A stretch of DNA of 64,000 nucleotides. Origin: Muricoccus harenae. Lineage in GTDB: Bacteria; Pseudomonadota; Alphaproteobacteria; Acetobacterales; Acetobacteraceae. Below, one piece after another: positions 30,158 through 45,523 of this stretch. Every line of letters begins with the position of its first letter. The stretch's first letter is position 1. The DNA lies in NCBI RefSeq assembly GCF_009848505.1, contig NZ_WWDL01000026.1, positions 1 to 64,000 of the forward strand, written 5' to 3'. The position numbers and the translations under genes were made by a program. The notes under the pieces were generated by a model, which searched no databases, had not been told where the DNA came from, and saw only the letters and a program-made list of their open reading frames with translations.

Positions 30158-30607
30158 ATCCGCACCTTCCTGGCCCTTGCCGCCCTGCTCCTCGCCGCCT
30201 GCGACAGCGAGCCGCCCGCGCAGTTGCGTGTCACCGGCGGCGATGCCGAACGCGGGCGGGTGGTGGCGCTGAACCATGGCTGCGGCGCCTGTCACGTCAT
30301 CCCCGGTGTCCGCGGCGCGGTTTCCTGGGCTGGGCCGCCGCTCAGCGAATGGGCGAGGCGCGGCTATCTGGCCGGGCATCTGCCGAACTCGCCTGAGAAC
30401 CTTGTCGCCTGGCTGCGCGATCCGCAGGCCATCGCACCCGGCAGCGCCATGCCGAATCTCGGCCTGACCGAGGCCGAGGCCCGGGACACCGCGGCCTATC
30501 TCTTCACCCTAGGCGCCGAGCGGCTGCCCCCGGTGCCGGCCGGGCAGCCGATGGGGCCGAAGGAGGCCGGCCCCCGGGAGGAGCCGCGTATCCGCCCCCG
30601 CGCCTGA
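30158..30607 (+). CDS. Lipoprotein-type monohaem cytochrome c, possible ATC start
   Basis: About 149 residues: signal with lipobox ALAALLLAAC (acylated Cys near residue 15), then a class I c-type domain with CGACH near residue 43 and Met ligand in GSAMPNLGLT. No in-frame ATG, GTG or TTG exists at the signal peptide. The codon in the right place is ATC at 30158, with AGGGAGG 6 nt upstream; the open frame further back is antisense-like sequence inside the amidohydrolase gene. So either ATC is the start or there is a sequence error. The gene ends 4 nt from the stop of the convergent oxidase operon, and the product probably donates electrons to that oxidase. Confidence 0.72.
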   Translation: MRTFLALAALLLAACDSEPPAQLRVTGGDAERGRVVALNHGCGACHVIPGVRGAVSWAGPPLSEWARRGYLAGHLPNSPENLVAWLRDPQAIAPGSAMPNLGLTEAEARDTAAYLFTLGAERLPPVPAGQPMGPKEAGPREEPRIRPRA

Positions 30608-30611
30608 TCCG

Positions 30612-30974
30612 CTACCAGCAGGCCGGCAGCACCAGGGCCGGCGCCGCCTCGAACAGCACCGCGAAGGCCGCGAAGACGCAGGCCGCCGCCCCGAACCAGC
30701 GGGTGAAGTCCGGCTCCGCCTGCCCGCCTTCCGTCACCGTCCCTCCTGGCCGCGCGAGGCGGAACAGGAGGAACAGCACCGCCAGGGCGAGAATCGTCAG
30801 GACCACGACGAGGGTGGCAACCCAGGGGAGGCCGAACAGCGTCGCATCCTGCATCCCGCGCTCGCAGGCAAAGCCGTGGACGGCATAGATCCCGCCGAAA
30901 TGCGCGCCCCAGACCGCCAGCCCGGCCGCAGGCCAGAGCACCGCCCGTGCGGCAGAGGCGGCCATTTCCGTCAC
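30612..30974 (-). CDS. Small three-helix membrane protein, last gene of oxidase superoperon
   Basis: 120 residues from GTG 30974, which overlaps the ctaD TGA as GTGA; ATG 30965 is an alternative. Three hydrophobic helices: about 10-30 (VLWPAAGLAVWGAHFGGIYA), 47-70 (LPWVATLVVVLTILALAVLF) and 92-115. A WGAHF...Y...C pattern lies in the first helix and loop, and three Cys are present. It is not a recognised subunit, but strict coupling to ctaD suggests an oxidase subunit IV-like or assembly factor. I recall similar small WxAHF proteins near other alphaproteobacterial oxidase genes, without a firm name. Confidence 0.72.
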   Translation of the reverse strand: MTEMAASAARAVLWPAAGLAVWGAHFGGIYAVHGFACERGMQDATLFGLPWVATLVVVLTILALAVLFLLFRLARPGGTVTEGGQAEPDFTRWFGAAACVFAAFAVLFEAAPALVLPACW

Positions 30975-33481
30975 AGCAGCCGCGGGAAGCCGTGCAGCAG
31001 CACGATTCCCACCGCCCCCTGGCCGGCCACGTAGAGCCAGAACAGCATCGTGTTGTCGAAGGTCAGCCGCCGCGTGCCGTCGACCATCCCCGCCCAGGAC
31101 CGTGCCTGGGTGTAGAGCGCCATGATGACCGCGACCGCGACGATCGCGCCGTGCCAGGCCAGCAGCGTGTAGGAAATGGCGGCATGGGTATGCTGCCCCG
31201 GCCGCTGCCCCGAGCCGAGAAGCGCGGAGAGATCTGCGCCATACCCCGCCAGCAGAAGCAGCAGCGCCACGGGCATGGCCCAGGCAGGCAGCGCATCGCC
31301 CCGCCGCAAGGCACGGCCCGCAAGCAGCATCGTCCCGGCAGCCAGCGCGTAGAGCAGCAGCGCCAGGCCACCCCGCTCCAGCAGCGGCAAGCCCATTCCG
31401 GCCGGGGGCCACATTCCGTCGCCATTCACCAGCCACAGGAAGAGATAGCTGCCGATGAGGCAGGCGTAGCAGGAGCCCATCACCAGCATCAGCCCCACCA
31501 TCACCCACCAGGAGGTCGAGATGGGGCCCGTCACATAGGTGGGCAGCACGATACCGCCGCCGATATCGCCGCGCCCTTCGCCGATTGGACCGAAATCCGT
31601 GGCGGTCCAGAGCCAGTAGAGGAAGGCACCCAGGGCCAGCACCGCGAATGCAATGGCCGGCACCACCAGCTCCACTGTCAGCACCAGGAAGAAGCCCGCC
31701 GTGCCGATGGCGGCGACAATATGCGACCAGCTCGGCCCCGGCAGCACGGCGACATATTGGGGGATGCCCTCGGCGGGGCTGACCACGAGCCCCTCGCGCA
31801 GCCCGGTGATGGTGCGGGGCAGGTAATGTCCACCCGCTTCCACCTCCGCCGCCAGGCCAGGCTTCCGCCAGAGCGGGTAGCGGCTATCCACCGCGGCCAG
31901 GCTGCGTGGCCCGTAATTCTCGTTCGGCAGCCATTCCAGCGTGCCGGCATCCCAGAGATTGCCGCTACCGCCGCTCATCCGGAAATTGCGCGCAATGTCG
32001 ATGAAGAGCAGCACGCCGCCCGCCAGCACCACCAATGCCCCGATGGTGGAAAGCGCGTTCCAGACCTCCAGCCCCATCCCGGCGGGATAGGTGTAGATGC
32101 GCCGCGGCATTCCCATGAATCCCGAGATGTGCATCGGGAAGAAGGTGAGGTTCACGCCGAGGAAGAGCAGCCAGAACACCCATTTTCCAAGCCGCTCCGA
32201 CAGCGGCGTGCCGATGGCGGGCGCCCAGTAGTAGAGCGCCGCGAGCACCGGGAAGACCATGCCGCCGATCAGCACGTAATGCAGATGCGCAACGATGAAG
32301 TAGGTGTCATGCGCCTGCCAGTCGAAGGGCGTGACAGAAACCATCACCCCCGTCAGCCCACCCAGGGTGAAGATGAAGATGAAGCCGAGGACGAAGAGCG
32401 TCGGCGTCGCGATGCGCACCTTCTTCCCCGAGGCGAAGGTCGCGATCCAGGCGAAGACCTGAATCCCCGACGGAACGGAAACCGCAAACCCTGCCGATGC
32501 GAAGAAGGACAGGCTCAGCCCCGGAATTCCCGTGGTGTACATGTGGTGCACCCAGAGGCCGAAGGACAGAAAGGCCGTCCCCACCAGCGCCAGCACCACC
32601 AGCGAATGCCCGATCAGCCGCGCGCGTGCCATGGCCGGCACGATCATGGAGACCATGCCCGCCGCCGGCAGGAAGATGATGTAGACCTCCGGATGCCCGA
32701 AGAACCAGAACAGGTGCTGCCAGAGCAACGGATCGCCGCCGCGCTCCGGGATGAAGAAGGGCCAGTCGAAGGCGCGCTCCAGCTCCAGCAGCGTGGAGGC
32801 GATGATGACGGCGGGGAAGGCAAAGATCACCATCCCCGCAAAGACCAGCATCGCCCAGGCGAAGACCGGCATCCGCCCCAGCGTCATGCCCGGGGCGCGG
32901 CAACGCAGGATGCCCGTCATCAACTCGATCGCGCCGGCGATTGCGCTGATCTCGATGAAGCCGATGCCCAGCAGATACATGTCCGTGTTGACGCCCGGCG
33001 AGGCTGCCTTGCCCGTCAGGGGCGGATACATGAACCAGCCACCGTCCGGGGCCGCGCCGAAGAACAGCGATGCGAAGAAGGCCGATCCACCGATCAGGTA
33101 GATCCAGTAGGCATAGGCGCCAAGGCGCGGCGTCGGCATCTCCCGCGCGCCCAGCATGGCCGGCAGCAGCGTGATCCCCACCGCCTCCACCACCGGCACG
33201 GCGAAGAGGAACATCATCACCACGCCATGGGTGGTGAAGACCTGGTTGTAGGTGTCCGCGCTCAGGATGTTCATCCCGGGCACGGCAAGCTGCAGGCGGA
33301 TCAGCACGCCCAGCAGCCCGGCCAGGAACAGGAACATCAGTGCCGTGGCCAGGAAAAGCGGGCCAATCAGGTTGTTGTTGATCTCGGTGATGACCGAAAT
33401 GCCGCGCGGGAAGGCCCAGGCATGCTCAAGCCGCCCCAACTCCTCCGGCGGGCGCGGCAGCGGATTCGGCAGATCGCTCAA
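30971..33481 (-). CDS. ctaD: Cytochrome c oxidase subunit I fused to subunit III
   Basis: 836 residues; residues ~1-560 are the haem-copper subunit I and ~600-836 are a subunit III-like helical domain. Active-site residues are present: H263-P-E-V-Y267 (CuB His cross-linked to Tyr), H312-H313 (CuB), H399 and H401 (haem a3 and a) in VAHLHYV. HPEVY fits an A1-like core. However, the K-channel Lys position reads Gln (VPSGIQVFAW, Q341), the D-channel Asp reads Glu (AREMPTPRL, E114) and the nearby Asn reads Gly (G121). ATG overlaps the ctaC stop (ATGA). Terminal electron acceptor enzyme reducing O2; no separate ctaE is needed. Confidence 0.93.
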   Translation of the reverse strand: MSDLPNPLPRPPEELGRLEHAWAFPRGISVITEINNNLIGPLFLATALMFLFLAGLLGVLIRLQLAVPGMNILSADTYNQVFTTHGVVMMFLFAVPVVEAVGITLLPAMLGAREMPTPRLGAYAYWIYLIGGSAFFASLFFGAAPDGGWFMYPPLTGKAASPGVNTDMYLLGIGFIEISAIAGAIELMTGILRCRAPGMTLGRMPVFAWAMLVFAGMVIFAFPAVIIASTLLELERAFDWPFFIPERGGDPLLWQHLFWFFGHPEVYIIFLPAAGMVSMIVPAMARARLIGHSLVVLALVGTAFLSFGLWVHHMYTTGIPGLSLSFFASAGFAVSVPSGIQVFAWIATFASGKKVRIATPTLFVLGFIFIFTLGGLTGVMVSVTPFDWQAHDTYFIVAHLHYVLIGGMVFPVLAALYYWAPAIGTPLSERLGKWVFWLLFLGVNLTFFPMHISGFMGMPRRIYTYPAGMGLEVWNALSTIGALVVLAGGVLLFIDIARNFRMSGGSGNLWDAGTLEWLPNENYGPRSLAAVDSRYPLWRKPGLAAEVEAGGHYLPRTITGLREGLVVSPAEGIPQYVAVLPGPSWSHIVAAIGTAGFFLVLTVELVVPAIAFAVLALGAFLYWLWTATDFGPIGEGRGDIGGGIVLPTYVTGPISTSWWVMVGLMLVMGSCYACLIGSYLFLWLVNGDGMWPPAGMGLPLLERGGLALLLYALAAGTMLLAGRALRRGDALPAWAMPVALLLLLAGYGADLSALLGSGQRPGQHTHAAISYTLLAWHGAIVAVAVIMALYTQARSWAGMVDGTRRLTFDNTMLFWLYVAGQGAVGIVLLHGFPRLL

Positions 33482-34446
33482 CGCAGCGATTCCAGCCAGG
33501 AAGCGAGAGCGAGGAGATCGGAGCCCTCGAGGGCACGGGCATAGGCGGGCATGGCGTTCCCGGGCTTGATGTCCTGCGGCGCCGCGATCCAGCCCGCCAG
33601 ATTGCCGCGGGTATTCGGGAGTGCCCCGCCCGCGAGGGTGGGGCGCGAGCCGACGCGCGACAGATCGGGCGCGATCCGCGCCGCCCAGGGCGTGCCGCGC
33701 ACCGCGTGGCAGGCACCGCAGCCGGCCTCGCCGAAAACCTGCATGCCGCGACGGTGCTCATCCGTCTGCGGCTCGGGGACAGGGGCGCGCTGGCGGGTGA
33801 TCCAGGCTTCGAACTCGGCGGGTTCCTGCACCACCACGTCGAAGGCCATCAGCGTGTGCTGCTGGCCGCAGAACTCGGTGCACTGGCCGCGCAGCACGCC
33901 GGCACGGTCGGCGCGCAGGCGCTGGCGGTTCACGCGGCCGGGGATCATGTCCAGCTTGCCGTGCAGGTTTGGCACCCAGACCGAATGGATCACATCGGCC
34001 GAGGTGAGATGCAGTTCCACCTCCCGCCCGACCGGCAGATGCAGCGCATTGGCGGTGACGGCACCCTCCCCCAGGTCGGGGTAGCGCACCTCCCACCAAT
34101 ACTGCCGTCCGATGATCTCCACGCGGAGCGGCGCCTCGGACATGGGTTGCGTCAAAGCGCGTGACACGCCGAGGGAATAGGCCAGCAGCGCGGTCAGCAC
34201 GGTCACCGGAAAGACGATCCCCATGCCGACGAGGAAGCGCCGCGATCCCATGCTCCGTCGCAGCGATCCCGGCGCCAGGATGGCAAGGGCCAGGAAGCCC
34301 ATGGTGAGCACGAAGATCGCCGCACCGCCCCAGAACAGCACATGGGTCAGATCCGCGATCCGCTCCGCCTGGATGCCCCAGGGATCGAGCGGCGTCTGCG
34401 CCCCCGAACAGCCGGCGAGAGCAAGAAGCGGAAGAAATCGCCTCAC
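33478..34446 (-). CDS. ctaC: Cytochrome c oxidase subunit II with C-terminal cytochrome c domain
   Basis: 322 residues from GTG 34446 (GTGA overlap with ctaG). Lipoprotein signal MRRFLPLLALAGC, two transmembrane helices (HVLFWGGAAIFVLTMGFLAL and MGIVFPVTVLTALLAYSLG), then a cupredoxin domain with the CuA ligands in VIHSVWVP and GQCTEFCGQQHTLM. The C-terminal ~95 residues add a haem c domain with CGACH and Met in GNAMPAYAR, making it a caa3-type subunit II. The fused haem can accept electrons directly from the Act complex. The frame running on to 35193 is a shadow of ctaG. Confidence 0.94.
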   Translation of the reverse strand: MRRFLPLLALAGCSGAQTPLDPWGIQAERIADLTHVLFWGGAAIFVLTMGFLALAILAPGSLRRSMGSRRFLVGMGIVFPVTVLTALLAYSLGVSRALTQPMSEAPLRVEIIGRQYWWEVRYPDLGEGAVTANALHLPVGREVELHLTSADVIHSVWVPNLHGKLDMIPGRVNRQRLRADRAGVLRGQCTEFCGQQHTLMAFDVVVQEPAEFEAWITRQRAPVPEPQTDEHRRGMQVFGEAGCGACHAVRGTPWAARIAPDLSRVGSRPTLAGGALPNTRGNLAGWIAAPQDIKPGNAMPAYARALEGSDLLALASWLESLR

Positions 34447-35165
34447 GCCGCGCGATGATCCGGCGCGGAACGCAGGGCGCGGGAGAGCGCCCAGAGGGCA
34501 AGTCCCGCGAAGACCACCCCGCCCGGCACCCACATCAGCAGCCCGCCAAGCTGCTGGTCCTCCAGCGGCGTCAGCCCCCAGGGCAGGGTCGTCGCCGCAT
34601 GCGGCGCGAAGAGCGGGCGTGGCGCGAAGGTCAAGAAGGCGCCGAGCGCGCCCATTTGCGCCGCCGTGGCCAGGCCCGAGAGCAGCGCCGCATCGGCCCG
34701 CGTCGCGCGCTGCACGCCATGCCAGAACCAGGCAGCCGTGCCGAGCAGCGAGGCATGCATCGCCCACCAAGCGGCATCGGAGACAAAGGTGAGCGCATAG
34801 GGCGCAGGCAGGTGCCAGAGCCACAGCACCACGGCGAAGATGATGGCCGAGAGGGCCAGTTCCCCCGGCGCCGCAATGTGGGCGCGGAAGCCCACCGCCA
34901 ACAGCGGCGCCGCCAGCAGCATCACCAGCAGATGCTGCCCCACCCGTACGGAGAAGAGCGCGACCGCCAGGCTGCAGAGCGGCGTGAGCAGCGCCGCGGC
35001 CAGCACCGTCCAGCCTGCAAGGAAGAGACGGCGCTCGCTGGCCAATGCCCAGCCGAGGCCCAGCCCGGCCAGCAGCACGCCGATGAGCAGCGGATCGAGC
35101 GTCCAGGCGAGCTCGCCTGGCCGGGGCGGCAGGCCGCAGAAGGGCACCACATCCGTCCTGATCAC
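34443..35165 (-). CDS. ctaG: Cytochrome oxidase assembly protein, Caa3_CtaG family
   Basis: 240 residues with about seven hydrophobic helices and no soluble domain. It matches the Caa3_CtaG family (as in Bacillus CtaG), not the soluble Cox11 that alphaproteobacteria also call CtaG. Features include VLWLWHLPAPYALTFVSDAA, AAWFWHGVQ, GLTPLEDQQLGGLLMWVPGG: conserved His and Trp residues thought to bind copper. GTG 35165 has AGGAGG about 10 nt upstream. It is 34 nt downstream of actF and overlaps ctaC. Likely helps insert CuA or CuB. Confidence 0.88.
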   Translation of the reverse strand: MIRTDVVPFCGLPPRPGELAWTLDPLLIGVLLAGLGLGWALASERRLFLAGWTVLAAALLTPLCSLAVALFSVRVGQHLLVMLLAAPLLAVGFRAHIAAPGELALSAIIFAVVLWLWHLPAPYALTFVSDAAWWAMHASLLGTAAWFWHGVQRATRADAALLSGLATAAQMGALGAFLTFAPRPLFAPHAATTLPWGLTPLEDQQLGGLLMWVPGGVVFAGLALWALSRALRSAPDHRAA

Positions 35166-35199
35166 GCGCTCCGCCCTCCTCTCGCTGATACATGGACGA

Positions 35200-36120
35200 T
35201 CATACAGGATGCGCGCCGCCGCGCTTCGCCGCGCGCCAGCCCAGCAGGAGGAGAAAGCCCAAGAAACCGATCACAATAGCGTCCACAATCGGGCTCGGTG
35301 CCCCCTGAGCGGCCCCAGGTGCGATTGGCGCATCCGGCCGCACCATCCACAGCAACAGCGCCGAGTGCTGCGCCAACAGCAACCCGCAGACCACGCGCAT
35401 CCGCCATGGCCGCCATTGCGGCACGACGGCGAGGACGATCGCACCGAGCAGGGCGGGAACGACCAGAATCGCCTTCAGCCAGAGCCATGGCCCTTCTTGC
35501 CGGCGCAGGTACCAGGCGGCCTCGGGCGGCAGGTCGGCCGCCCAGACCGTAATGAACTGCACGAACCAGAGCCAAAGCGTGAAGATGGCCAGAGTCAGCA
35601 GGGCACGCTCCACCCCGGTGCGGGCCTCCGGATCTTGCGGGCGTCCCTGGGCCAGCACGGCCAGAGACAGGAAGGCCGCGGCGCCCCCTGTCAGCAGGGC
35701 GATGCCATGCAGGCTTCCCACCCAACCGGGATCACGGGAAAGGGCCCAGTCCTCGAATCCGATCGCAGCCGAGATCACCATCAGCAGCAGCGCCAACCCC
35801 GCCTTCCGCCGGCTGGCGGTGCGGATCAGCATCCGGCCGAGCACCGCCCAAAGCACCAGGATCACGGCACTCACCGCCTCGATGAGAAGCGCCCTCCCCT
35901 GCCCCGCCCAGGGATAGAGGCGCCCAGCCAGGAGCAGCAACGGCAGGGCCAGCAGGACCAAGGCGGGCATGGCCCGGCCTGCGGCAGAGAAGGCGGGCCG
36001 CAAGGGCTCCACCCAGAGCTCCCGCAGCAGGATGCCCGAGGACAGCACGGCCAGCGCCCCCGCACCCAAACTGGCCGTAAGAAGAAAGGCGAGCAGCCAG
36101 GCCTCGGCGAAGGCGGTCAT
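35200..36120 (-). CDS. actF: Alternative complex III, membrane subunit ActF
   Basis: 306 residues, about ten hydrophobic helices, half of the NrfD/PsrC-like membrane core of alternative complex III. ATG 36120 (ATGA overlap with actE) begins MTAFAEAWLLAFLLTASLGAG; the frame running on to 36525 is antisense noise. Helical landmarks: WVGSLHGIALLTGGAAAFLS, ERALLTLAIFTLWLWFVQFI, LPPEAAWYLRRQEGPWLWLK. The last two resemble ActF proteins, where W-x-FVQFI and the RR loop recur. In ACIII structures ActF sits opposite ActC and may take part in proton movement, but lacks quinol-site residues. Confidence 0.87.
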   Translation of the reverse strand: MTAFAEAWLLAFLLTASLGAGALAVLSSGILLRELWVEPLRPAFSAAGRAMPALVLLALPLLLLAGRLYPWAGQGRALLIEAVSAVILVLWAVLGRMLIRTASRRKAGLALLLMVISAAIGFEDWALSRDPGWVGSLHGIALLTGGAAAFLSLAVLAQGRPQDPEARTGVERALLTLAIFTLWLWFVQFITVWAADLPPEAAWYLRRQEGPWLWLKAILVVPALLGAIVLAVVPQWRPWRMRVVCGLLLAQHSALLLWMVRPDAPIAPGAAQGAPSPIVDAIVIGFLGFLLLLGWRAAKRGGAHPV

Positions 36121-36530
36121 GGCGCGCCACGCATGAGCGCCTCCACATGCCGTGCCACGGCCCAGCGCTGGCGGGGATCGAGCCGGTCCGACAGCGGATG
36201 GGCGCCGAGGCGGTTCTCCGCGATTGCCGCCATGCTGCGCGCGGGATCGGCCGGCAGCGGCGCGATCGGCGGATGCCCGCGCGAAACGACCACCCCGTCT
36301 CCCAATCCGCGCGCCCCGTGACAGGGCGTGCAGTAGATACCGTAGCGCTCCGCCCCTTCGGCCAGCAGGGCGGCATCCACCGGCGGGCCCGGCGGCGCTA
36401 GGACCCGGGCCTGCGCCGCCGCGCCGCGCGGCACCGAGCCTTCGGGCGGCGGTGCCGGCGGCGGGGGCTTGGGGCTCTCCGGCCAGCCGTCGCATCCGGC
36501 CAGTAGGAGAAGGAGGACCAAGCATTTCAC
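36117..36530 (-). CDS. actE: Alternative complex III, monohaem cytochrome c ActE
   Basis: 137 residues from GTG 36530, overlapping the actD TGA as GTGA. Lipoprotein signal MKCLVLLLLLAGC with acylated Cys at 13, a Pro-rich linker, then a haem c domain with CTPCH near residue 67 and a C-terminal helix RWAVARHVEALMRG. The Met ligand may be in ARSMAAIAENR. ActE passes electrons from the ActA haems to an acceptor, here probably the cytochrome domain of CtaC. The frame upstream of 36530 is a shadow of actD. Confidence 0.88.
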   Translation of the reverse strand: MKCLVLLLLLAGCDGWPESPKPPPPAPPPEGSVPRGAAAQARVLAPPGPPVDAALLAEGAERYGIYCTPCHGARGLGDGVVVSRGHPPIAPLPADPARSMAAIAENRLGAHPLSDRLDPRQRWAVARHVEALMRGAP

Positions 36531-37066
36531 TCGCTCCTTACCTCCGAGACGCGCAGCGGCGCGAGGCCGCGTAGGAAATGGGCCGCCCCATCCTCGTCGT
36601 AGAGCGGATCCTCGGCGGAGAGGAACAGGAAGAACCGGTCTTCGCTTGCGCGGTGAAAGCCGCGCGCGAAGAAGGCCGGGTGGTGCAGCCGCGGCAAGCC
36701 GTTCAGCGCCAGCATCCCGATCAGCGCCGCGGCACAGGCCCAGAGGATGGCGACGAGATAGGTGGTGGGCAGGAAGACCGGCCAGGCATTCGGTGGCCGC
36801 CCCCCGACATTCACGGGATAGAGGTGAACGGAGACATACCACGCCGCCCCCGCCGAGATCGCCGCCCCAGCCGCCGCTGCCGCCATGGCAATGTATCCCA
36901 CCGGCGCCGCGCTGACGCCCAGCGCCTCCGCCGCCTCTGGCACCGGATAGGGCGAATAGGCCTCGAGGCGGGTCCAGCCAGCGGCACGGGCCGTGCGCAC
37001 GGCCGCCGTCATGGTCTCGGCTTCATCGAATTCGGCCATCAGGCCGAAAGGAGGCGGATGGCTCAA
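36527..37066 (-). CDS. actD: Alternative complex III subunit ActD (DUF3341), TTG start
   Basis: 179 residues from TTG 37066, which overlaps the actC stop as TTGA and yields MSHPPPFGLMAEFDEAET, the usual beginning of ActD with its ferredoxin-like domain. LEAYSPYPVPEAAEALG follows, then two helices (VGYIAMAAAAAGAAISAGAAW and TYLVAILWACAAALIGMLAL) and PAFFARGFHRASEDRFFLFL. DUF3341/ActD is a structural subunit in known ACIII complexes. ORF callers using ATG would start 44 codons too early or nine codons late. Confidence 0.9.
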   Translation of the reverse strand: MSHPPPFGLMAEFDEAETMTAAVRTARAAGWTRLEAYSPYPVPEAAEALGVSAAPVGYIAMAAAAAGAAISAGAAWYVSVHLYPVNVGGRPPNAWPVFLPTTYLVAILWACAAALIGMLALNGLPRLHHPAFFARGFHRASEDRFFLFLSAEDPLYDEDGAAHFLRGLAPLRVSEVRSE

Positions 37067-38385
37067 CGCTCCTCCTCCTCCGCCTCGGTCTCGCTTTCCT
37101 CGTGCCGTGTCTCGAACATGGATACAGCGGGGATCATGCGGCCGAACAGCAGCAGCACCATGGCGAAGAGCGCGACCGTGCCGCCCAGCAGTCCCCATTC
37201 CGCAGGGCTCGGCGTGTAGCCGCGCGACATGGTGGGCAGGTGGTCCCGCAGCAGCCCGTCGACCACGATGGACCAGCGATCAAGCCACACACCCGCCGCC
37301 GCCAGGATCCCGACCGGCACGACCACGGCGGCACGGGACCGTAAGCCCGCGAACCACAGAACCTGCGGCAGCAGGGCACCCAGCAGCACCGCGCCCCAAT
37401 AGGCCGGCGCACCTGCCCCGAGCACGCGCGCGGAAAGCGCCGCTCGGGTGGTCTCGTCCTCCTCCAGGAAGCCGACCAGCAGCTCATGCGCATAGGCCAG
37501 CCCCGCCGCCAGCCCCGCGCAGGCCAGCAGCCGCGCGAGCAGGTCCATGTCCGCATCATCCACGAAGCGCTCCAGCGAGAGCGCCATCCGCAGCACCGCC
37601 GCGAGGGCCAGCACCACGCCGAGGCCCGAGGGCAGGCCCGTGACCACCACATGCAGCGGCAGCCGCGCCTGGTGCCAGGCGGGCACGAGGGTGGTGGCGA
37701 ATTCCAGCGCCACCACCGTCTGCGCCCAGAGCAGCAGCGGCAGCACCATGGCCGCGACGAGGCGATAGGCCGCCTGGTGCCGGTGCCAATGCGTGACCGA
37801 GCCGCGCCAGCCGAGCGCGAACAGGCCATAGGCCCGCGCCGCACGGATGCGCCCGCGCGCTGCCGCGCGATCCCGCATGGTCGCGAGATCCGGAATCAGC
37901 CCGATGAACCAGAAGAGGGAGGTGACGATGACATGTGACATGATTCCCCAGAAATCCCAGACCAGCGGGCTGCCGAATTGCGGCCAGAGGCCCGCGCGAT
38001 GGGGATAGGCGAGGGTCCAGTGGAACAGCCACGGCCGCCCCAGATGCAGGATCGGGTAGAGGGCGGCCGCGAGGATGGCGGCCAGGGCCGCCGCCTCGGC
38101 GAAGCGGTTCACGGCGGTGCGCAGCCCGTGGCGCCGCAGTACCAGGATGGCAGCGAAGAGGCTGGCGGCATTGGCGATGCCGATCCACCAGGCATAGGCG
38201 ATCAGGTCGAAGCCCCAGACATGGGGAATGTTGTTCCCCCAGACCCCGATGCCCGCCACCAGCACGGCGGAGACGGAAATCCCCAGCAGCAGTATCCCCG
38301 CCGCGCAAAGCAGGACCGCGATCCGGAAGCCCCAGGCTCCCGGTCGCAACGCGGCCTCGGCGACGGGCGCGGTGATGTCACTCAC
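37063..38385 (-). CDS. actC: Alternative complex III quinol-binding subunit ActC (NrfD family)
   Basis: 440-residue polytopic protein with about ten helices of the NrfD/PsrC family. The N-terminal VWGNNIPHVWGFDLIAYAWW is the ActC version of the quinol-site region, and NRFAEAAALAAILAAALYPI and GRPWLFHWTLAYPHRAGLWP follow; the His and Asp residues here are those implicated in quinol oxidation in ACIII structures. A Glu-rich C-terminal tail is cytoplasmic. ATG overlaps the actB stop (ATGA). This is the entry point for electrons from quinol. Confidence 0.93.
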   Translation of the reverse strand: MSDITAPVAEAALRPGAWGFRIAVLLCAAGILLLGISVSAVLVAGIGVWGNNIPHVWGFDLIAYAWWIGIANAASLFAAILVLRRHGLRTAVNRFAEAAALAAILAAALYPILHLGRPWLFHWTLAYPHRAGLWPQFGSPLVWDFWGIMSHVIVTSLFWFIGLIPDLATMRDRAAARGRIRAARAYGLFALGWRGSVTHWHRHQAAYRLVAAMVLPLLLWAQTVVALEFATTLVPAWHQARLPLHVVVTGLPSGLGVVLALAAVLRMALSLERFVDDADMDLLARLLACAGLAAGLAYAHELLVGFLEEDETTRAALSARVLGAGAPAYWGAVLLGALLPQVLWFAGLRSRAAVVVPVGILAAAGVWLDRWSIVVDGLLRDHLPTMSRGYTPSPAEWGLLGGTVALFAMVLLLFGRMIPAVSMFETRHEESETEAEEEER

Positions 38386-41195
38386 GGCGCGTCCTCCGTA
38401 TCCGTCGCGACACGCGCGAGATAGGTGGTGCGGGGCCGCGTGCCGAGCTGCCCGAGCATGGCGTAATGCCGCCCGCCCTGCCGCGCACGGGAGACGTCGC
38501 TTTCAGGGTCGTTGATGTCGCCGAAGGTGATGGCGCGCGTCGGGCAGGCGCGCTGGCATGCCGTCTCCACCTCCCCGTCCTGCAACGCGCGCCCCTCCGT
38601 GGAGGCGGCGCTGCGGGCGGTCGTGATGCGATGGACGCAATAGGTGCATTTCTCCATCACTCCGCGCGGGCGGAGCGAGACATCCGGGTTGCGCGCCGGC
38701 GTGTCGAGGAAGCGGCGATGGTCCGACCAGTTGAAGCGCCGCACCTTGTAGGGGCAGTTGTTGGAGCATGTGCGCGTGCCGATGCAGCGCGGATACACCA
38801 TCACGTTCAGCCCCTCATGGTCGTGCAGCGTGGCGTTCACGGGGCACACGGGCTCGCAGGGCGCCTGCTCGCAATGCATGCAGGGCACGGGCTGGAAGCT
38901 GGCGGCGGGATTCTCCTCCGGCCCGTGGTGGTAGCGGTCCACGCGCAGCCAGTGCATCTCGCGCCCCTGGCTGACGGCAAGCGGCCCGACCACGGGCACG
39001 TTGTTCTCCGCCTGGCAGGCCAGGGCACAGGCGTTGCAGCCGATGCAGGCATCCAGGTCGATCGCCATGCCCCAGGCATGGCCGGGATAGGGCCAATCCT
39101 TGTACAGCGAAGCGTCGCGCTCCGGCTGCGGCAGGGCCTCGCCCGGGGCGACGGTGCGGATGGCCTCGCTGGAATCGATGCGGTGGTGGGAGTCGGTCGT
39201 GACGAGCGGTGCCTTGCGACCCGTGGGACGCAGCGACAGGCCCGGCGCAACCCAGGCGCCATCCGCCGGCCGGAGCGCATAGGCGTCGAAGCCCCGCCCC
39301 TCCCCCACCGGCCCGCCCGCCCGCCGACCGCCGCCGAGCGGCAGGGTGACGCAGCCCGGCGCGTGGCCCGGCATAGGCCAGAAGGGGGCGAGGAGGCTGC
39401 GCCCGCCGAGGCTCAGCTCCACCTCATCCCCAGGCGATAGGCCGAACTCCGCGGCGGTGGCCGGGGCCATCAGGGCCGCATTGCCCCAGGTGATCTTGGT
39501 TAGCGGGCGCGGCATCTCCTGCAGCCAGGCCTCATGCGCCTCCGCGCCGCCGCGCGTGCCGGAATCGGGCGCGAAAACCGCTGCCAGTCCAGACGGCAGG
39601 AGTGGCGACGGGCGGTCCCAGTTCGCACCCAGGGGAAGCTCCAATGGGGTGGGCGGATCGCCCGCAATTCCTTCCTCCAGCGCACCAGCCCAGCGCGCGT
39701 CGAAACCTTCCTCGCCCCAGGCCGCGCGCCAGCTGGCCTCCACCGCCGCCCGGGCGGTGACGGAAGCGCCGAGCAGCACCGAGAGAAGCTCCACCTCCCC
39801 CCAGGCCTCCTCCACGAGCGGCACGGTGGCGGGCTGGCGAATGGCCGGGGTGCCATCGAAGGCGCGGGAATCGCCCCAGGCTTCCAGGGGATGCGGCAAA
39901 GGGACATGCCAGCTGCAGAGGCGGGCCGTCTCGTCCTGCCGGAAGCCGAGATGCAGTGCGAAGGGCAGCTTGCGGAGGGCAGCCTCGAAGCCGAGGGCGG
40001 CGGGGGCATCATAGGCCGGGTTGGCGCCGAAGATGAGACAATGCGTCACCTCCCCCGCCGCCATCTCGGCTGCCAGGGTGGCGAGGGAAGCCCCCATCGG
40101 CTCCGGCCGCGCCAGCGGGTGGGGCAGCAGGCGCAAGGCGCTGCTGCCGAGCCGCCGGTTCATCGCATGGGCGAGCGCATGGAGGGCCGCACTGCCATGG
40201 CCCGCGATGACCAATGCCTCCGGCCCCGCCGCGGCCAGGGCGGAGGCGACTTCCGCCGCTGCCGGATGCTGGCCGCCGGCTGCTAATCCCTCAACACCCA
40301 GCGCCGCGGCGACCGCGCGGGCGAAGGGCTCGGCCTCGGCGGGGTGGAGCGGAATGCGGTGATCGGCACGCGCGCCGGAGAGGCTAAGCGCGGCCTCCGC
40401 GACGATGAGCCTCGGTGCGCGCCCGGCCCTGCGCGCACCGATCCAGTCCCGCGCGTGGCGCAGGTGCCCCGGCATCGTGCCCAGCGGGTCCGCGCCGAGG
40501 CAGAGCACGGTCCGGGCGCGCCCCATCTCCGGCACCGCGGTGGCGGGTCGGCCGAAGGCACGCATTGCGCCTTCCAGCGCCGCATCATCGGCCAGCGGAT
40601 CGTGCTGGTGCCAGCGGGCTTCCGGGAAGGCGGCGAGCACCTGCCCCATTACCCGGCCCAGGGTGGGGGAGGAAACCGGGCCGGTGAGGATACGCAGCCC
40701 GCGCCCGCCGCGCGGCGCCAGCTCGGCCCGCATGTTGGCGAGGGCGTCCTGCAGCATCGCCGTTGGTACCGGGCGGCCGTCCCGCCGGATGCGGCGGGAC
40801 CGGTGCGGGTCGTGCAGCGAGAGCACGGCCGCCTCCGCGAAAATATCGGTGGCGCCGAGGCTGGCGGGATGGCGCGGATTGCCCTCCAGCTTCACCGCAT
40901 GGCCGTTGCGGGTGCGGACCACCACGCCGCGCGACAGCCCATCCATCTCCAGCACCGTGGCGTATTCGGCCGAAGCGGCCGCCGCATCGGCGGCGCGCGC
41001 GGGGGCGTGCAGCGGATGGCCGTGCTCCGGCACGTCGTCGCAGCCGGCCAGGCTCGCCAGGGCGAGGGACGCCCCCATCAACCGCAGCGCGTCGCGCCGC
41101 TCCAGCGCAGCCTGGGGGGCGGAGGCTAGGGCGGCGGGCTGCGGCGGCTCGGCCGCCGGATCGGGGCCGCGCCGGGGTCCGGTACGGTCGCTCAT
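38382..41195 (-). CDS. actB: Alternative complex III iron-sulfur subunit ActB
   Basis: 937 residues. The N-terminus has Tat-like RRDALRLMGASLALASLAGC, also a lipobox, so export in folded form with lipid anchoring is likely. Residues ~45-640 are a molybdopterin-oxidoreductase-like fold that in ActB carries no molybdenum cofactor. The C-terminal third is a NrfC/PsrB-like ferredoxin part with Cys clusters CIGCNACALAC, CMHCEQAPCEPVC, CIGTRTCSNNC and CTYC...CQRAC, enough for four Fe-S clusters. They wire electrons towards the ActA haems. ATG overlaps the actA stop (ATGA). Confidence 0.94.
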   Translation of the reverse strand: MSDRTGPRRGPDPAAEPPQPAALASAPQAALERRDALRLMGASLALASLAGCDDVPEHGHPLHAPARAADAAAASAEYATVLEMDGLSRGVVVRTRNGHAVKLEGNPRHPASLGATDIFAEAAVLSLHDPHRSRRIRRDGRPVPTAMLQDALANMRAELAPRGGRGLRILTGPVSSPTLGRVMGQVLAAFPEARWHQHDPLADDAALEGAMRAFGRPATAVPEMGRARTVLCLGADPLGTMPGHLRHARDWIGARRAGRAPRLIVAEAALSLSGARADHRIPLHPAEAEPFARAVAAALGVEGLAAGGQHPAAAEVASALAAAGPEALVIAGHGSAALHALAHAMNRRLGSSALRLLPHPLARPEPMGASLATLAAEMAAGEVTHCLIFGANPAYDAPAALGFEAALRKLPFALHLGFRQDETARLCSWHVPLPHPLEAWGDSRAFDGTPAIRQPATVPLVEEAWGEVELLSVLLGASVTARAAVEASWRAAWGEEGFDARWAGALEEGIAGDPPTPLELPLGANWDRPSPLLPSGLAAVFAPDSGTRGGAEAHEAWLQEMPRPLTKITWGNAALMAPATAAEFGLSPGDEVELSLGGRSLLAPFWPMPGHAPGCVTLPLGGGRRAGGPVGEGRGFDAYALRPADGAWVAPGLSLRPTGRKAPLVTTDSHHRIDSSEAIRTVAPGEALPQPERDASLYKDWPYPGHAWGMAIDLDACIGCNACALACQAENNVPVVGPLAVSQGREMHWLRVDRYHHGPEENPAASFQPVPCMHCEQAPCEPVCPVNATLHDHEGLNVMVYPRCIGTRTCSNNCPYKVRRFNWSDHRRFLDTPARNPDVSLRPRGVMEKCTYCVHRITTARSAASTEGRALQDGEVETACQRACPTRAITFGDINDPESDVSRARQGGRHYAMLGQLGTRPRTTYLARVATDTEDAP

Positions 41196-41827
41196 CGGTG
41201 GCAGGTCGAACAGCGGGTCAATGGCGAGACCTCCACGCCGTAATGCTCGTAGCGCAGGGATTGCAGGCCATGGGGCCGGACGGCCGGCGCCGCCGCGGGC
41301 TGCGTGCCGGCTGCCGGGTTCCGGTGGCAGTCGAGGCAGAAGCCCATGGAGAGCGTTTCGGCCCGTGCCGTGCGCGGCATCTCCTGAACCTTGCCGTGGC
41401 AGCTCTCGCAGGTGACCCCCGCCTGGCTATGGGCGGCGTGGTCGAAGCGCGCATGGTCCGGCAGCCGGCTGACCGAGGACCATTCCACCGCCGCCCTGCG
41501 CGCGATCGCCGCCCGCAGGGGGGCGAACTGCGCCGTGACGTTCCAGACACGCTCATGGCAGCCGAGGCAGGTCTCGGCACTCGGCATCCCTGCATCCGTC
41601 CTGCGCTCGACCCCCGCATGGCAGAAGCGGCAATCGAGCCCGAGGTCGCCGGCATGGACCGCATGGCTGAAGGGAATGGGCTGCGCCGCCGGGCGCCCGA
41701 TGGCCCAGGCATTGCCCGATCGCACATAGGCAAAGACCGCCGCCCCGATCAGCAGGACCAGGGCGGCACCGACGATCAGCGCCAGCCGCAACCGGGCGTC
41801 AGCCTGGGTGGTGAAGATCTGCGCCAT
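41192..41827 (-). CDS. actA: Alternative complex III pentahaem cytochrome c ActA
   Basis: 211 residues with an N-terminal membrane anchor (LALIVGAALVLLIGAAVFAYV) and five CxxCH motifs: CRFCH, CLGCH, CESCH, CLDCH and CSTCH, the defining count for ActA. IPFSHAVHAGDLGLDC and DHARFDHAAH supply distal His ligands. I prefer ATG 41827 over the adjacent ATG 41830, because GGGAG lies 4-5 nt upstream of the former and almost abuts the latter; the frame runs to 41857. First gene of the respiratory superoperon; its promoter should lie in 41828-41905, where I see only a 12-bp palindrome GGGCCGCGGCCC (41886-41897). Confidence 0.93.
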   Translation of the reverse strand: MAQIFTTQADARLRLALIVGAALVLLIGAAVFAYVRSGNAWAIGRPAAQPIPFSHAVHAGDLGLDCRFCHAGVERRTDAGMPSAETCLGCHERVWNVTAQFAPLRAAIARRAAVEWSSVSRLPDHARFDHAAHSQAGVTCESCHGKVQEMPRTARAETLSMGFCLDCHRNPAAGTQPAAAPAVRPHGLQSLRYEHYGVEVSPLTRCSTCHR

Positions 41828-41905
41828 CATGCTCCCTGGGCCGGACCGAAGGGCCAACGCCAGGAAGCACAGATGGTTGGACGCGGGGCCGCGGCCCTGT
41901 GCAGA

Positions 41906-43519
41906 TCAGGCGAGCGTCGTCAGGTCCTGGAACCAGTGCTGCGCCTGGGTGTAGTTTCGGACGTTCCGGCCCAGCACATGCGGGTTGGTGTCATGCACCA
42001 CGAAGACCAGCAGCGCCTGGTCCACCACCCGCTCATGCACGCGTGCCATCAGCCGGTCCTGCTCCGCTACGTCGAAGGACTGCACCGCCTGGTCGATCAG
42101 CTTGTCGGTCTCGGCGTCCCTGGCGTGGGACCAGTTCACGCCCACCGGCGCGACCTGGTTAGAATGAAAGAAGCGCACAAGGGCGTAAAGCGGATCGGAA
42201 GTGACATAGGCTACGTTATTGGCCGTGATGCCGCGCATGGATTCATGCGCCGCGCCGTTGCGCCAGGCGGTGTAGAGCACTTCCAGCTCCACCGGCTGGA
42301 ACTCCACCTCGATGCCAATCTCCTTCCAGGCCTGCTGGATGAACTCATTCATCGGCATGGACAGCATCTGGCCCGAGCCGCCGGTGGCGATCAGAAACCT
42401 CGTCTTCATCGGGTTGCGCGGGGAGAAGCCGGCCGCCTGCACCAGCTTGCGCGCCTCGTCCGGGTCGTAGCGCACCTTGAAGGAGGGATTGCCGAACCAG
42501 GGGGAGGCCGGGTCCACCACGCCGGTCGCCGGCTTCGCCAGACCGCCGAGAAGGGCGACGATATCATCCCGGTTGATGGCGAGGTTCGCCGCCTGCCGCA
42601 GCCGCAGGTCGCGCCAGGGCGAGCCTTCCAGCATGGACAGGTGGTAGTTCCACACATGCGGGGTGACGTTCTCCACCACCCGGTTCCCGGCCGCCTTGAG
42701 CTGCGGCACCATGTCCAGCGCCGGCGTTTCGATCAGGTCCACCTGCCCGCTCAGCAGCGCATTGCTGCGCGTCACGGCATCGGGGGCGCAGACCAGTACC
42801 ACGCGGTCCACCTTCGGCATCCGGTCCGGGTTCCAATAAGCCGTGTTCTTCACCAACTCCGCCCGTTCGCGCGGAACCAGCCGCGCCAGCCTGAAGGGTC
42901 CGGTGCCCGAAGGCTCGGAGGCGAAGCGGTCCCAGGAGCGGCCGAGCTTCTCGTATTGCGCCGGCGAGGAGACAAGGAACCACAGCAGCTGATAGGGGAA
43001 GAGGCTGTCCACCGCCTTGGTGGTCAGCTCCACCGTCATTGCATCCAGCTTCTTCCAAGAGGCGAGCGAAGGCAGGCGCGGCCGGACCTGCGCCGCCTGG
43101 CGCTGGTCGAAATGCGGCGCCTGATTGTTCATCACCTTCTCGAAGTTCCAGATCACCGCGTCGGCGTCCAAGGCCGAGCCGTCATGGAACTTCACGCCCT
43201 CGCGCAGCTTCAGGGTCCAGCGCTTGCGGTCAGCTGGATCGGCCTCCCAGGAGGTGGCGAGGCCTGGCACCAGCTTTCCAGGCCGGTCCGCCACATCCAT
43301 CTCCCAGGCGACCAGCGGATCGTAGATGGTGTAGCCGGTGAACTGGTAGGCACCCGCCCCGCGGTCCGGCTGGCCCGCGGTGAGCGGGATGTCCGCCATC
43401 GAGATGCCGTAGCGCAGCACGCGCTCGGCGGTTTGGGCCTGGGCTTCGGAAATGATGAGGCCGGACGGCAGGGTGGCGAGGCCGGTGGCGCCCAGCAGGG
43501 CGCGGCGCGACAGGTTCAT
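41906..43519 (-). CDS. Peptide/solute-binding protein, SBP family 5 (paralogue 1)
   Basis: 537-residue periplasmic binding protein of the DppA/OppA family. Tat-like signal MNLSRRALLGATGLATLPSG ends near AQAQ. Family signatures: LREGVKFHDGSALDADAVIW, FASEPSGTGPFRL, NLAINRDDIVALL. ATG 43519 has GGAGC 6 nt upstream and creates the signal peptide. It lies behind the dppFDBC genes, past a probable terminator, and clearly resembles the binding protein at 47680, including the start of the mature part (R-x-G-x2-x-ADIP-x2-x-GQPD). Ligand unknown. Confidence 0.9.
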   Translation of the reverse strand: MNLSRRALLGATGLATLPSGLIISEAQAQTAERVLRYGISMADIPLTAGQPDRGAGAYQFTGYTIYDPLVAWEMDVADRPGKLVPGLATSWEADPADRKRWTLKLREGVKFHDGSALDADAVIWNFEKVMNNQAPHFDQRQAAQVRPRLPSLASWKKLDAMTVELTTKAVDSLFPYQLLWFLVSSPAQYEKLGRSWDRFASEPSGTGPFRLARLVPRERAELVKNTAYWNPDRMPKVDRVVLVCAPDAVTRSNALLSGQVDLIETPALDMVPQLKAAGNRVVENVTPHVWNYHLSMLEGSPWRDLRLRQAANLAINRDDIVALLGGLAKPATGVVDPASPWFGNPSFKVRYDPDEARKLVQAAGFSPRNPMKTRFLIATGGSGQMLSMPMNEFIQQAWKEIGIEVEFQPVELEVLYTAWRNGAAHESMRGITANNVAYVTSDPLYALVRFFHSNQVAPVGVNWSHARDAETDKLIDQAVQSFDVAEQDRLMARVHERVVDQALLVFVVHDTNPHVLGRNVRNYTQAQHWFQDLTTLA

Positions 43520-43611
43520 GGATTGCTCCGGGTTGTCCCGAAGCCCGTTGCAATGGTTATGCCGCAAAAAAGAACCGGGCGCCCCAGTCTCCCTGGCGCA
43601 CCCGCAAACCG

Positions 43612-43649
43612 ATAAAAATTGAAGGGGGTCCGGGGGATACCTCCCCCGG
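43612..43649 (-). terminator. Probable terminator after dppC
   Basis: On the minus strand, CCGGGGGA and TCCCCCGG form a perfect 8-bp stem with a 4-nt loop 7 nt after the dppC stop. About 10 nt further comes ATTTTTAT (43613-43619 on the plus strand as its complement). The spacer is longer than ideal, so efficiency is uncertain. It would separate the transporter operon from the following binding-protein gene. Confidence 0.45.
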
Positions 43650-43655
43650 CCTTTG

Positions 43656-44561
43656 CTACCCCCTCACATCCATCGCTGTCCGCAGCCCATCGCTGACCAT
43701 GTTGAAGCACATGCTCGTCACGAAGATGCAAACGCCCGGCAGCATGGCGATGAGGGGCTGGGTGTAGATTGCCGTCCGCAGCGTGTTCAGCATCAGCCCC
43801 CATTCCGGCTCCGGCGGCTTGGTGCCGAGGCCGAGGAAGGAAAGGCCCGAGGCCAGGATCATCGAGACGCTGATGAGGCTGGTTGCATAGACAAAGATCG
43901 GCCCCAGCACATTGGGCAGCACATGCACCCGCACGATGGTCATCGCCCCCGCGCCACTCGCCCGGGCTGATTCCACATAGTCCAGATTGCGGACAGAGGT
44001 GGTGGTGCTTTCCGCCACGCGGATGATCTGCGGGATGAACACCAGGGTCAGCGACAGCATGGCATTGGAGATGCCAGGCCCCAACGCGCCGGAGATGGCC
44101 ACTGCCAGCAGCACGGAAGGGAAGGCGTAGAAGACGTCCGTCGTCCGCATGATGGCCATGTTGACCCAGCCACCCGCGAAGCCCGCGATCAGCCCCAGCG
44201 TGCCGCCGATGACGAAGGCGATGAGCACCGGCGTGATGCCGAGGAACCAGGATAGCCGTCCGCCATGAAGAAGCCGGGTGAGCATGTCCCGCCCCAGCTC
44301 ATCCGTGCCCAGCGGATAGCGCCAGTCCTGGAAGCCGATCGGCCGCAGCCGGCGAATCATGCTCGTCTGGTAGGGATCATGCGGGGAAAGCCAGGGCGCG
44401 AAGATGATGGCCAGGGCCATCAGCAGCAGCACGAAGCCAAAGAAGAGCGTGACCGGGTCGCGCGAGAGGCGCCGGGCCACGCCTTGCCAGTAGCCCCGGT
44501 TAGGCGCCGGCACAGGCTGCGGCACGGCGATGACGGGTGTTGTCGCGGTGGTGGTGCTCAT
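43656..44561 (-). CDS. dppC: Peptide ABC transporter permease (DppC-like)
   Basis: 301 residues. A cytoplasmic N-terminus is followed by helix VTLFFGFVLLLMALAIIFAP, the DppC-specific periplasmic loop HDPYQTSMIRRLRPIG with PLGTDELGRDMLTRLLHGGR, and the C-terminal BPD_transp_1 domain with EAA loop YVESARASGAGAMTIVRVHV. ATG 44561 overlaps the dppB stop (ATGA); the frame running on to 45077 is noise. Forms the pore with DppB. Confidence 0.92.
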   Translation of the reverse strand: MSTTTATTPVIAVPQPVPAPNRGYWQGVARRLSRDPVTLFFGFVLLLMALAIIFAPWLSPHDPYQTSMIRRLRPIGFQDWRYPLGTDELGRDMLTRLLHGGRLSWFLGITPVLIAFVIGGTLGLIAGFAGGWVNMAIMRTTDVFYAFPSVLLAVAISGALGPGISNAMLSLTLVFIPQIIRVAESTTTSVRNLDYVESARASGAGAMTIVRVHVLPNVLGPIFVYATSLISVSMILASGLSFLGLGTKPPEPEWGLMLNTLRTAIYTQPLIAMLPGVCIFVTSMCFNMVSDGLRTAMDVRG

Positions 44562-45511
44562 GCGCGGCGGATCCGGGGGTCGAGCGCGGTCTGGATGAGG
44601 TCCACCGCGAGGTTGAGCGCCACGAAGAAGATGGCCAGCACCAGGATCGTGCCCTGCAGCACCGGCAGGTCTCGCTGGAAGATGGCGCTGTTCAGCAGGA
44701 AGCCGGTGCCCGGCCAGGAGAACACCGTCTCCACCAGGATGGAGCCGCCCATCAGGTAGCCAAGCTGGAGACCCATCACCGCCAGCACGGAGGGCGCCGC
44801 ATTCTTCACCACATGCAGCGCGATCCCGCCCCGCCGCAGCCCCTTGCCGCGCAGGGTGGTCACGAAGTCCTGGTTCAGCAGCTCCATCACCACGCCACGC
44901 ACGGTGCGGGTGATGATGCCCATGGGGATGACCGAAAGGGTCACGGCCGGCAGGACAAGGTACTTGATGTGCTCCCAGTCCCAGGCCCAGGAGCCGGAGC
45001 CGCCAGGCCCCGCGCCCATGGCGGGCAGCCAGTTCAGCGTTACGCTGAACAGCACCACCATCACCATGCCCAGCCAATAGTGCGGAATGGAGACGCCCGC
45101 CGCCGCGAAGCCCACCGCCAGCTTGTCCAGCCAGCTGCCGCGGAACACTGCGGCAATGGTGCCCAGGATCGAGCCCATCACGAAGCCGATCCCGGCCGCG
45201 GCCAGCGCCAGCATCAGCGTGTTCCCGATGGCCGAGACCAGATCCGCCGTGACCGGCCGCCCGGTGGCGAGCGAGCGCCCGAGATCGCCCTGCACCACGC
45301 GGGAGAGCCAGATCCCGAACTGCACCGGTAGCGGCTTGTCCAGCCCATAGTCACGGCGGACCTGTTCCACCACCTCCTGCGGGGCGTCGGCGGGCACGAT
45401 GGCGTTGATCGGATCGCCCGGGGCGATCTGCACGAGCATGAAGCAGACCAGCCCCACGGCCAGGGCAATGGGAATGGCGTAGAGGATGCGGCGGATCAGG
45501 TAGAGGAGCAT
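44558..45511 (-). CDS. dppB: Peptide ABC transporter permease (DppB-like)
   Basis: 317 residues starting MLLYLIRRILYAIPIALAVG, the standard DppB first helix, followed by MLVQIAPGDPINAIVPADAP and a loop with RDYGLDKPLPVQFGIWLSRV. The C-terminal domain has the EAA loop FVTTLRGKGLRRGGIALHVV and ETVFSWPGTGFLLNSAIFQR. Encoded 12 nt after dppD in the operon dppF-D-B-C, an order where both ATPases precede the permeases. Confidence 0.93.
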   Translation of the reverse strand: MLLYLIRRILYAIPIALAVGLVCFMLVQIAPGDPINAIVPADAPQEVVEQVRRDYGLDKPLPVQFGIWLSRVVQGDLGRSLATGRPVTADLVSAIGNTLMLALAAAGIGFVMGSILGTIAAVFRGSWLDKLAVGFAAAGVSIPHYWLGMVMVVLFSVTLNWLPAMGAGPGGSGSWAWDWEHIKYLVLPAVTLSVIPMGIITRTVRGVVMELLNQDFVTTLRGKGLRRGGIALHVVKNAAPSVLAVMGLQLGYLMGGSILVETVFSWPGTGFLLNSAIFQRDLPVLQGTILVLAIFFVALNLAVDLIQTALDPRIRRA

Positions 45512-45523
45512 GGTTCCTCCGGC

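Follow-up and report, generated by a model that had tools for sequence, protein, structure and literature searches.

An alternative complex III operon in Muricoccus harenae with changes in the proposed coupling residues and an oxidase lacking the K-channel lysine

The window analysed here, the first 64,000 nucleotides of contig NZ_WWDL01000026.1 of the alphaproteobacterium Muricoccus harenae (GCF_009848505.1), contains an operon for an alternative complex III (ACIII) and a haem-copper oxidase. Ten open reading frames (ORFs), all on the minus strand, follow one another in the order actABCDEF-ctaG-ctaC-ctaD-orf10 between positions 30612 and 41827. The initial annotation had proposed this order and had read it as an ACIII joined to an oxidase with a haem-c tail; the ORF listing confirms the order, and domain matches and motifs support such a co-directional cluster in an alphaproteobacterium. 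Gene identities come from Pfam, NCBIfam and comparison with solved ACIII and oxidase chains. The actA gene (41192..41827, with an ATG also at 41830) encodes a pentahaem cytochrome c with five CxxCH motifs counted by eye (6f0k_A, E 3e-38), and actB (38382..41195) the fused molybdopterin-like and Fe-S subunit (8k9e_B, E 5e-206). They are followed by actC (37063..38385), the NrfD-like quinol-site subunit, with an NrfD domain, and actD (36527..37066; PF11821), both with strong matches to solved ACIII chains. By domain match, actE (36117..36530) encodes a monohaem cytochrome c, with one CxxCH and a lipoprotein-like N-terminus by eye. The second membrane subunit, actF (35200..36120), has no Pfam match and matches solved ActF chains weakly (E 2e-5). 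All six components of an ACIII gene set are present, namely a pentahaem ActA, a fused Fe-S ActB, an NrfD-like ActC, ActD, a monohaem ActE and ActF, the last on that weak match.

The oxidase cassette begins with ctaG (34443..35165), a copper assembly protein of the Pfam family Caa3_CtaG, not Cox11. Subunit II is encoded by ctaC (33478..34446), with COX2 and cytochrome c domains, a CuA motif and a C-terminal haem c (CGACH, the single CxxCH); a haem-c tail with one CxxCH occurs in all 49 act-neighbouring subunits II that we read. The ctaD gene (30971..33481) encodes a fused subunit I+III of an A-family haem-copper oxidase, identified by its COX1 domain and by solved oxidase chains. No Pfam COX3 match was obtained in any of 20 homologues, but the COX3 proteins that ordinary act operons encode do align with the C-terminal profile (probability 93 and E 3e-7 in hhalign). 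The cassette has the features of the cytochrome c oxidase (COX) operon type a, namely a COX1-3 fusion, Caa3_CtaG and a haem-c COX2, the COX3 part being recognised by profile only. The last gene, orf10 (30612..30974), lacks a Pfam match and encodes a small membrane-type protein that is conserved after ctaD in the cassette; our guess is that it is perhaps a subunit IV. On the plus strand, a convergent gene for a cytochrome c, cytcP (30158..30607, start codon not fixed), is lipoprotein-like by eye and, where the two match, shares 46% identity with the haem-c tail of CtaC. It lies beside the cassette in six related loci (L031, L032, L033, L041, L072, L107) and near it in L096, with varying place and strand.

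From actA to orf10, the nine junctions are ATGA, GTGA, TTGA, GTGA, ATGA, a 34-nt gap between actF and ctaG (35166..35199, minus strand), GTGA, TTGA and GTGA. The eight 4-nt overlaps and the single gap of the initial annotation are thus confirmed from the ORFs. Several overlaps hinge on the choice of a GTG or TTG start, and alternative starts exist downstream (for example actD +23 and ctaD +38). In a genome of the same genus (L031), eight of nine junctions again overlap and the gap is 31 nt. Within the window, 5 of 14 other close co-directional gene pairs offer a start codon in a 4-nt overlap, compared with 8 of 9 in the operon (one-sided Fisher p 0.017), a background obtained with a crude ORF picker that covered 75% of the window with 34 genes and itself recovered two of the nine operon junctions. 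An act-cox operon of the published type, on plasmid 1 of Nitrobacter hamburgensis, has 4-nt overlaps at 9 of 11 annotated junctions. The overlaps therefore exceed the local rate of the window yet are ordinary for act-cox operons. They had been taken to tie act to cta; we reject them as proof of such coupling, because the only gap coincides with the border at which the modules of relatives separate and because overlaps are frequent in act-cox operons. Fixed stoichiometry, which had also been predicted from them, could at most hold within each module. Upstream of actA, a scan for promoters and terminators gave no match, and around actF-ctaG the same scan gave one terminator-like match only, inside actF. 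A peptide-type ABC transporter operon (41906-47547, minus strand) ends 75-78 nt upstream of actA, a synteny kept in L031; the promoter scan gave no promoter-like match between it and actA, and read-through transcription from it into act is possible.

CtaD differs from the canonical oxidases of its family in the proton channels. The published definition of type A1 lists Asp124, Asn113, Asn131, Asn199 and Ser134 for the D-channel and Lys354 for the K-channel (PMC3084760). When aligned to it, CtaD keeps Glu278 and Tyr280, both marks of type A1, and Ser291. The D- and K-channel set is changed: Asp124 to Glu, Asn113 to Ile, Asn131 to Gly, Asn199 to Glu, Ser134 to Ala, Thr351 to Ser and Lys354 to Gln. 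A second glutamate in helix IV stands nine residues before 199, at position 190 by count; both new glutamates are placed in the channel by alignment alone. CtaD also lacks the type A2 fingerprint (YSHP.VY and Lys354), with FGHPEVY and Gln in its place. The usual partner of act is an A2 oxidase, with the YSHP motif, Lys354, Asn113 and Asn199 in 35 of 35 such act-neighbouring COX1 sequences (L179, read in a wrong frame, was left out), and Asn113, Asn199, Ala278 and Lys354 occur at all ten plasmid act loci that we read from 19 records. In the act-linked oxidases of the window group, Gln354 and Glu199 are found at all nine loci. Among 80 relatives, Gln354 is present in 70 (one was unreadable) and the triple Gln354, Glu190 and Glu199 in 60; this K-less family, lacking the channel lysine, is widespread. 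Position 354 of L109 could not be read. Plasmids carry CtaD relatives at E < 1e-100 as well, on 329 of 72,556 records, with Sinorhizobium (75) and Rhizobium (53) the most frequent. The cassette on Azospirillum brasilense p4, the sole such plasmid record with residues checked, stands apart from any act genes and has Gln354, Glu190 and Glu199. From archaea, at least, family A oxidases with a variant K-channel have been described (PMC8239418), and we make no claim to be the first to report the Gln354 substitution; mutating channel-end residues is described to lower activity in model enzymes (PMC8239185).

Two further sets of unusual oxidases were encountered. The M. harenae genome encodes a second K-less oxidase (C43:101361-102695, L002), which is a-II-like and has Asp124 replaced by Asn and Lys354 by Gln. 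Seven distant COX1 sequences (L141, L143-L147 and L149), from Burkholderiales, Rhodanobacter, Sphingomonas and gammaproteobacterial records, have the ordinary Asn/Asp set of the D-channel, but Trp replaces Glu278 and Ala replaces Lys354. They form another group within family A in which the usual ends of the channels are missing.

The ACIII half is changed as well. For Rhodothermus marinus, a published model assigns residues to the quinol site and to half-channels, and proposes cross-talk between Glu122 in ActD, Ser245 in ActC and Tyr284 in ActF (PMC5928083); the cross-talk residues are given there as 98-100% conserved, as part of a proposed mechanism and not of a formal definition. In R. marinus numbering, the window ACIII has Leu, Trp and Trp at the three cross-talk positions, and in ActC also His247 to Gln and Asp253 to Glu. 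Most of these changes recur in the eight loci of its clade (see below): ActD Glu122 is Leu or Ile in 8/8, ActF Tyr284 is Trp in seven and Tyr in L096, and ActC Ser245 is variable, with Ser in two. At the quinol site, His139 and Asp169 of ActC are kept in all eight, and the third acid, Asp253, is Glu, again in 8/8, as is Gln at 247. Outside this clade and the second clade described next, all 36 other loci keep Glu122, Ser245 and His247 (two weak hits left out). A second ACIII clade of nine loci (L151, L153, L154, L169, L170, L172, L173, L178 and L200; support 100) has Glu122 replaced by Ser, Ser/Ala/Thr at 245, His247 replaced by Gln and Asp253 by Met, with Arg395 changed to His in 8/9. The ActC counts leave out L041 (same genome as L161) and L201 and L203 (weak ActD hits, no act operon). 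Natural ACIIIs thus do not all carry the cross-talk set, and here the loss characterises a clade. Two genomes, G059 and G088, each hold both kinds of ACIII, a canonical one with Glu, Tyr and Ser (L168 and L163) and a variant one (L034 and L160). Because both kinds occur in one cell, we doubt that the use of ubiquinone is the sole cause of the changes.

Gene order in relatives shows where the operon comes apart. A CtaD at least 64% identical is encoded in 7 of 150 genomes of the family, M. harenae included, and in five of these act adjoins: in the window, in G003 and G059 with the window order, and in G035 and G088, where the cta cassette stands between actA and actB (the G035 contig ends inside actB). 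In G063 and G036 the cassette has no act beside it, and in G021 (CtaD 45-47% identical) act and cta are convergent. Conservation of the gene order, suggested earlier as a check, thus holds in some relatives, whereas others are rearranged or split at the act/cta border. Since relatives rearrange there, the 34-nt gap is best seen as the seam between two modules. Within the cta cassettes of five rearranged relatives, 10 of 15 junctions still offer a start in a 4-nt overlap. Among the 80 named relatives, scanned up to 10 kb on each side (some stretches being shorter), the cassette is act-linked in four: R. acroporae (G059), two Microvirga and Roseomonas genomospecies 6; one weak ActB-like hit was seen in L142. 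Each of the nine window-type loci was recovered by an oxidase search. Five of them (G000, G003, G021, G059 and G088) were also found by an ActD search of the family, and all five agree on a K-less partner. The ActD sampling took in 34 of 36 family matches, all four further new ones and 14 of 31 further new genomes.

Phylogenetic analysis separates the histories of the two modules. In a tree of ActB and ActC from 50 of 58 stretches (those with too short an ActB or ActC were dropped, G035 among them), the eight usable ACIIIs with K-less oxidases form one clade (ultrafast bootstrap 100). It nests in a clade of 17 loci (support 100); the remaining nine loci of this larger clade pair with A2 oxidases. 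The oxidases of the eight-member ACIII clade fall in three places within the K-less family of the COX1 tree. The approximately unbiased (AU) test rejects a single clade of act-linked oxidases (2.8e-11). It also rejects joining the window group with G021 (3.9e-25) or with Microvirga (0.0012). The ACIII tree has a seven-locus clade that includes G021 and excludes L096 (support 100), and the COX1 tree pairs G021 with L096 (support 100). This conflict implies that at G021 the oxidase, and not merely the gene order, was exchanged. The trees point to at least one re-pairing, and only this one is firm; there was probably more than one, and additional exchanges or act losses could account for the remaining scatter.

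The genome (5.3 Mb, 126 contigs, 98.7% complete) encodes four haem-copper oxidase subunits I, including the CtaD of the window. A conventional bc1 complex, for which the initial annotation had advised a search, is found elsewhere in the genome (cytochrome b and c1). We reject a genome relying on ACIII alone, as bc1 is present. Given bc1 and three other haem-copper oxidases, the operon would form a parallel chain. No match to menA or mqnA was found in the genome with models that hit control genomes, an absence that is no proof at this completeness, and ubiA is present; on these grounds ubiquinol is the likely donor. Electron transfer can be sketched from the solved homologues and from the haem-c tail of subunit II. 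ActC would oxidize ubiquinol, and electrons would pass from the Fe-S site of ActB to the five haems of ActA and to ActE, then to the haem c of CtaC, CuA, haem a and finally haem a3/CuB of CtaD, where O2 would be reduced. Direct contact between ACIII and oxidase is predicted in this route, and the residues suggest that the path of protons is altered in both halves.

We consider it rather probable, judging from sequence, that the operon encodes a complete quinol:oxygen route, parallel to bc1-aa3, with a swapped oxidase, re-tuned and probably with a lower proton yield. A Rhodothermus-type ACIII would have had its usual A2 partner replaced by the ctaG-ctaC-ctaD-orf10 (and cytcP) cassette, which belongs to another oxidase family, widespread and found on plasmids too. 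Within the ACIII clade at least one further oxidase exchange followed (G021), and at the loci seen the oxidase always belongs to that family. A further-reaching version is put forward tentatively: both halves may lack the canonical proton routes, ACIII may repeatedly recruit K-less oxidases from one mobile family, and the assembly may show altered pumping, or none beyond scalar protons, beside bc1-aa3. The main alternative to a lower yield is a re-routing of protons through the new glutamates. Several points weigh against our preferred reading. The conserved glutamates of the oxidase could form a working channel. In ActC, the outer half-channel is intact at 8/8 loci (Asp197, Arg196, Asp191, Arg119, Arg114, Glu122, also Arg395) and many of the substitutions at inner positions retain a polar residue (T100S, Y176H, H247Q), so that re-routing is as possible as loss. 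The second ACIII clade has an ordinary A2 oxidase at the seven loci read, and among the ten plasmid loci Cupriavidus has Glu122 of ActD changed to Ser and Ser245 of ActC to Ala, and Martelella has Ile at 245 and Thr at 247; with similar ACIII changes beside A2 oxidases, the two halves may have changed independently of each other. The coupling model for R. marinus is itself hypothetical, and PMC13059093 describes ACIII pumping as not confirmed experimentally. The COX1 node uniting all act-linked tips has a support of 46; apart from G021, one old pairing and many losses of act could explain the scatter. Because the loci were ascertained through the oxidase, a window-type ACIII with another partner may exist outside the sample.

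The proposed route has to be set against three other explanations. The cta cassette could be a mobile neighbour of convenience that receives its electrons chiefly from bc1 through soluble cytochrome c, with ACIII reducing other acceptors too. Cassettes without adjoining act (G063, G036 and A. brasilense p4), the 76 of 80 relatives without act within the scanned stretch, the presence of bc1 and the separate cytochrome c gene beside the cassette all fit this; the K-less partner at 9/9 loci of the ACIII group despite differing gene orders (loci found through the oxidase), and the agreement of the five also found by ActD alone, make it doubtful. We hold it improbable that this is an ordinary ACIII-caa3 operon of type a-I, with substitutions due to neutral drift and normal pumping by both complexes. 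The six act genes and the haem-c subunit II are indeed alike, and act-oxidase linkage is common (PMC4013037, PMC6431628), but the oxidase, lacking the YS motif, falls outside A2, SCO and separate cox3/cox4 are missing, and drift looks unlikely given the conserved triple of glutamine and two glutamates in 60 of 80 relatives. A nitric oxide reductase, or another enzyme not acting on O2, might be suspected from the unusual channel residues; with the CuB histidines, the tyrosine of HPEVY and the CuA ligands all present, we reject this as scarcely credible.

The window clade offers a natural replacement of the proposed coupling residues and so bears on whether, and via which residues, ACIII pumps protons, a question that PMC13059093 treats as open. 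The two genomes with canonical and variant ACIII on one quinone pool provide a built-in control. As the oxidase family demonstrates, loss of the K-channel lysine is compatible with a wide distribution of A-family oxidases, and the incongruent trees show that ACIII and oxidase are exchangeable modules. With residue changes in both halves, the operon would be a useful natural test of proton pumping by such machines.

COX operons linked to act have been published for alphaproteobacteria, as has the notion of a compact chain from quinol to oxygen (PMC4013037, PMC6431628), and supercomplexes of R. marinus and Flavobacterium johnsoniae have been described (PMC5928083, PMC8552683, PMC8361435). Our literature search, which did not cover subscription papers, listed no paper on an ACIII paired with a K-less oxidase or on one without Glu122 of ActD. 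The initial annotation had compared the operon with the ACIII-aa3 supercomplex of F. johnsoniae (6btm), which likewise joins ACIII to an A-family oxidase; there, a sixth haem domain of ActA reportedly stands in for the oxidase's haem-c tail (PMC8552683, PMC5928083). R. marinus ACIII-caa3 (6f0k; PMC5928083) is closer, as it shares with the window a five-haem ActA, a monohaem ActE and a haem-c tail on subunit II. Unlike R. marinus, the window has the substitutions in ActC, ActD and ActF, probably uses ubiquinone, and has bc1 in the same genome. With COX operon type a-I (N. hamburgensis plasmid 1, A. brasilense p1) it has in common actA-F followed by an A-family oxidase with a haem-c subunit II, and frequent 4-nt overlaps. 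It differs from that type in lacking SCO, the extra ORF after actF and separate cox3/cox4, in having Caa3_CtaG, a fused I+III and orf10, and in a COX1 without the YS motif and Lys354. Types a and a-II of Degli Esposti have COX1-3 or COX1-4 fusions, Caa3_CtaG and a haem-c subunit II, as in the window, and K354Q is common to the window and to a-II-like oxidases (Bradyrhizobium L124 and L125, and C43 of M. harenae itself), assigned by length and similarity. Unlike the window, both types are presented without ACIII in the accessible text of their description. The window operon thus encodes an ACIII of a known kind whose partner oxidase comes from another family and whose proposed coupling residues are changed.

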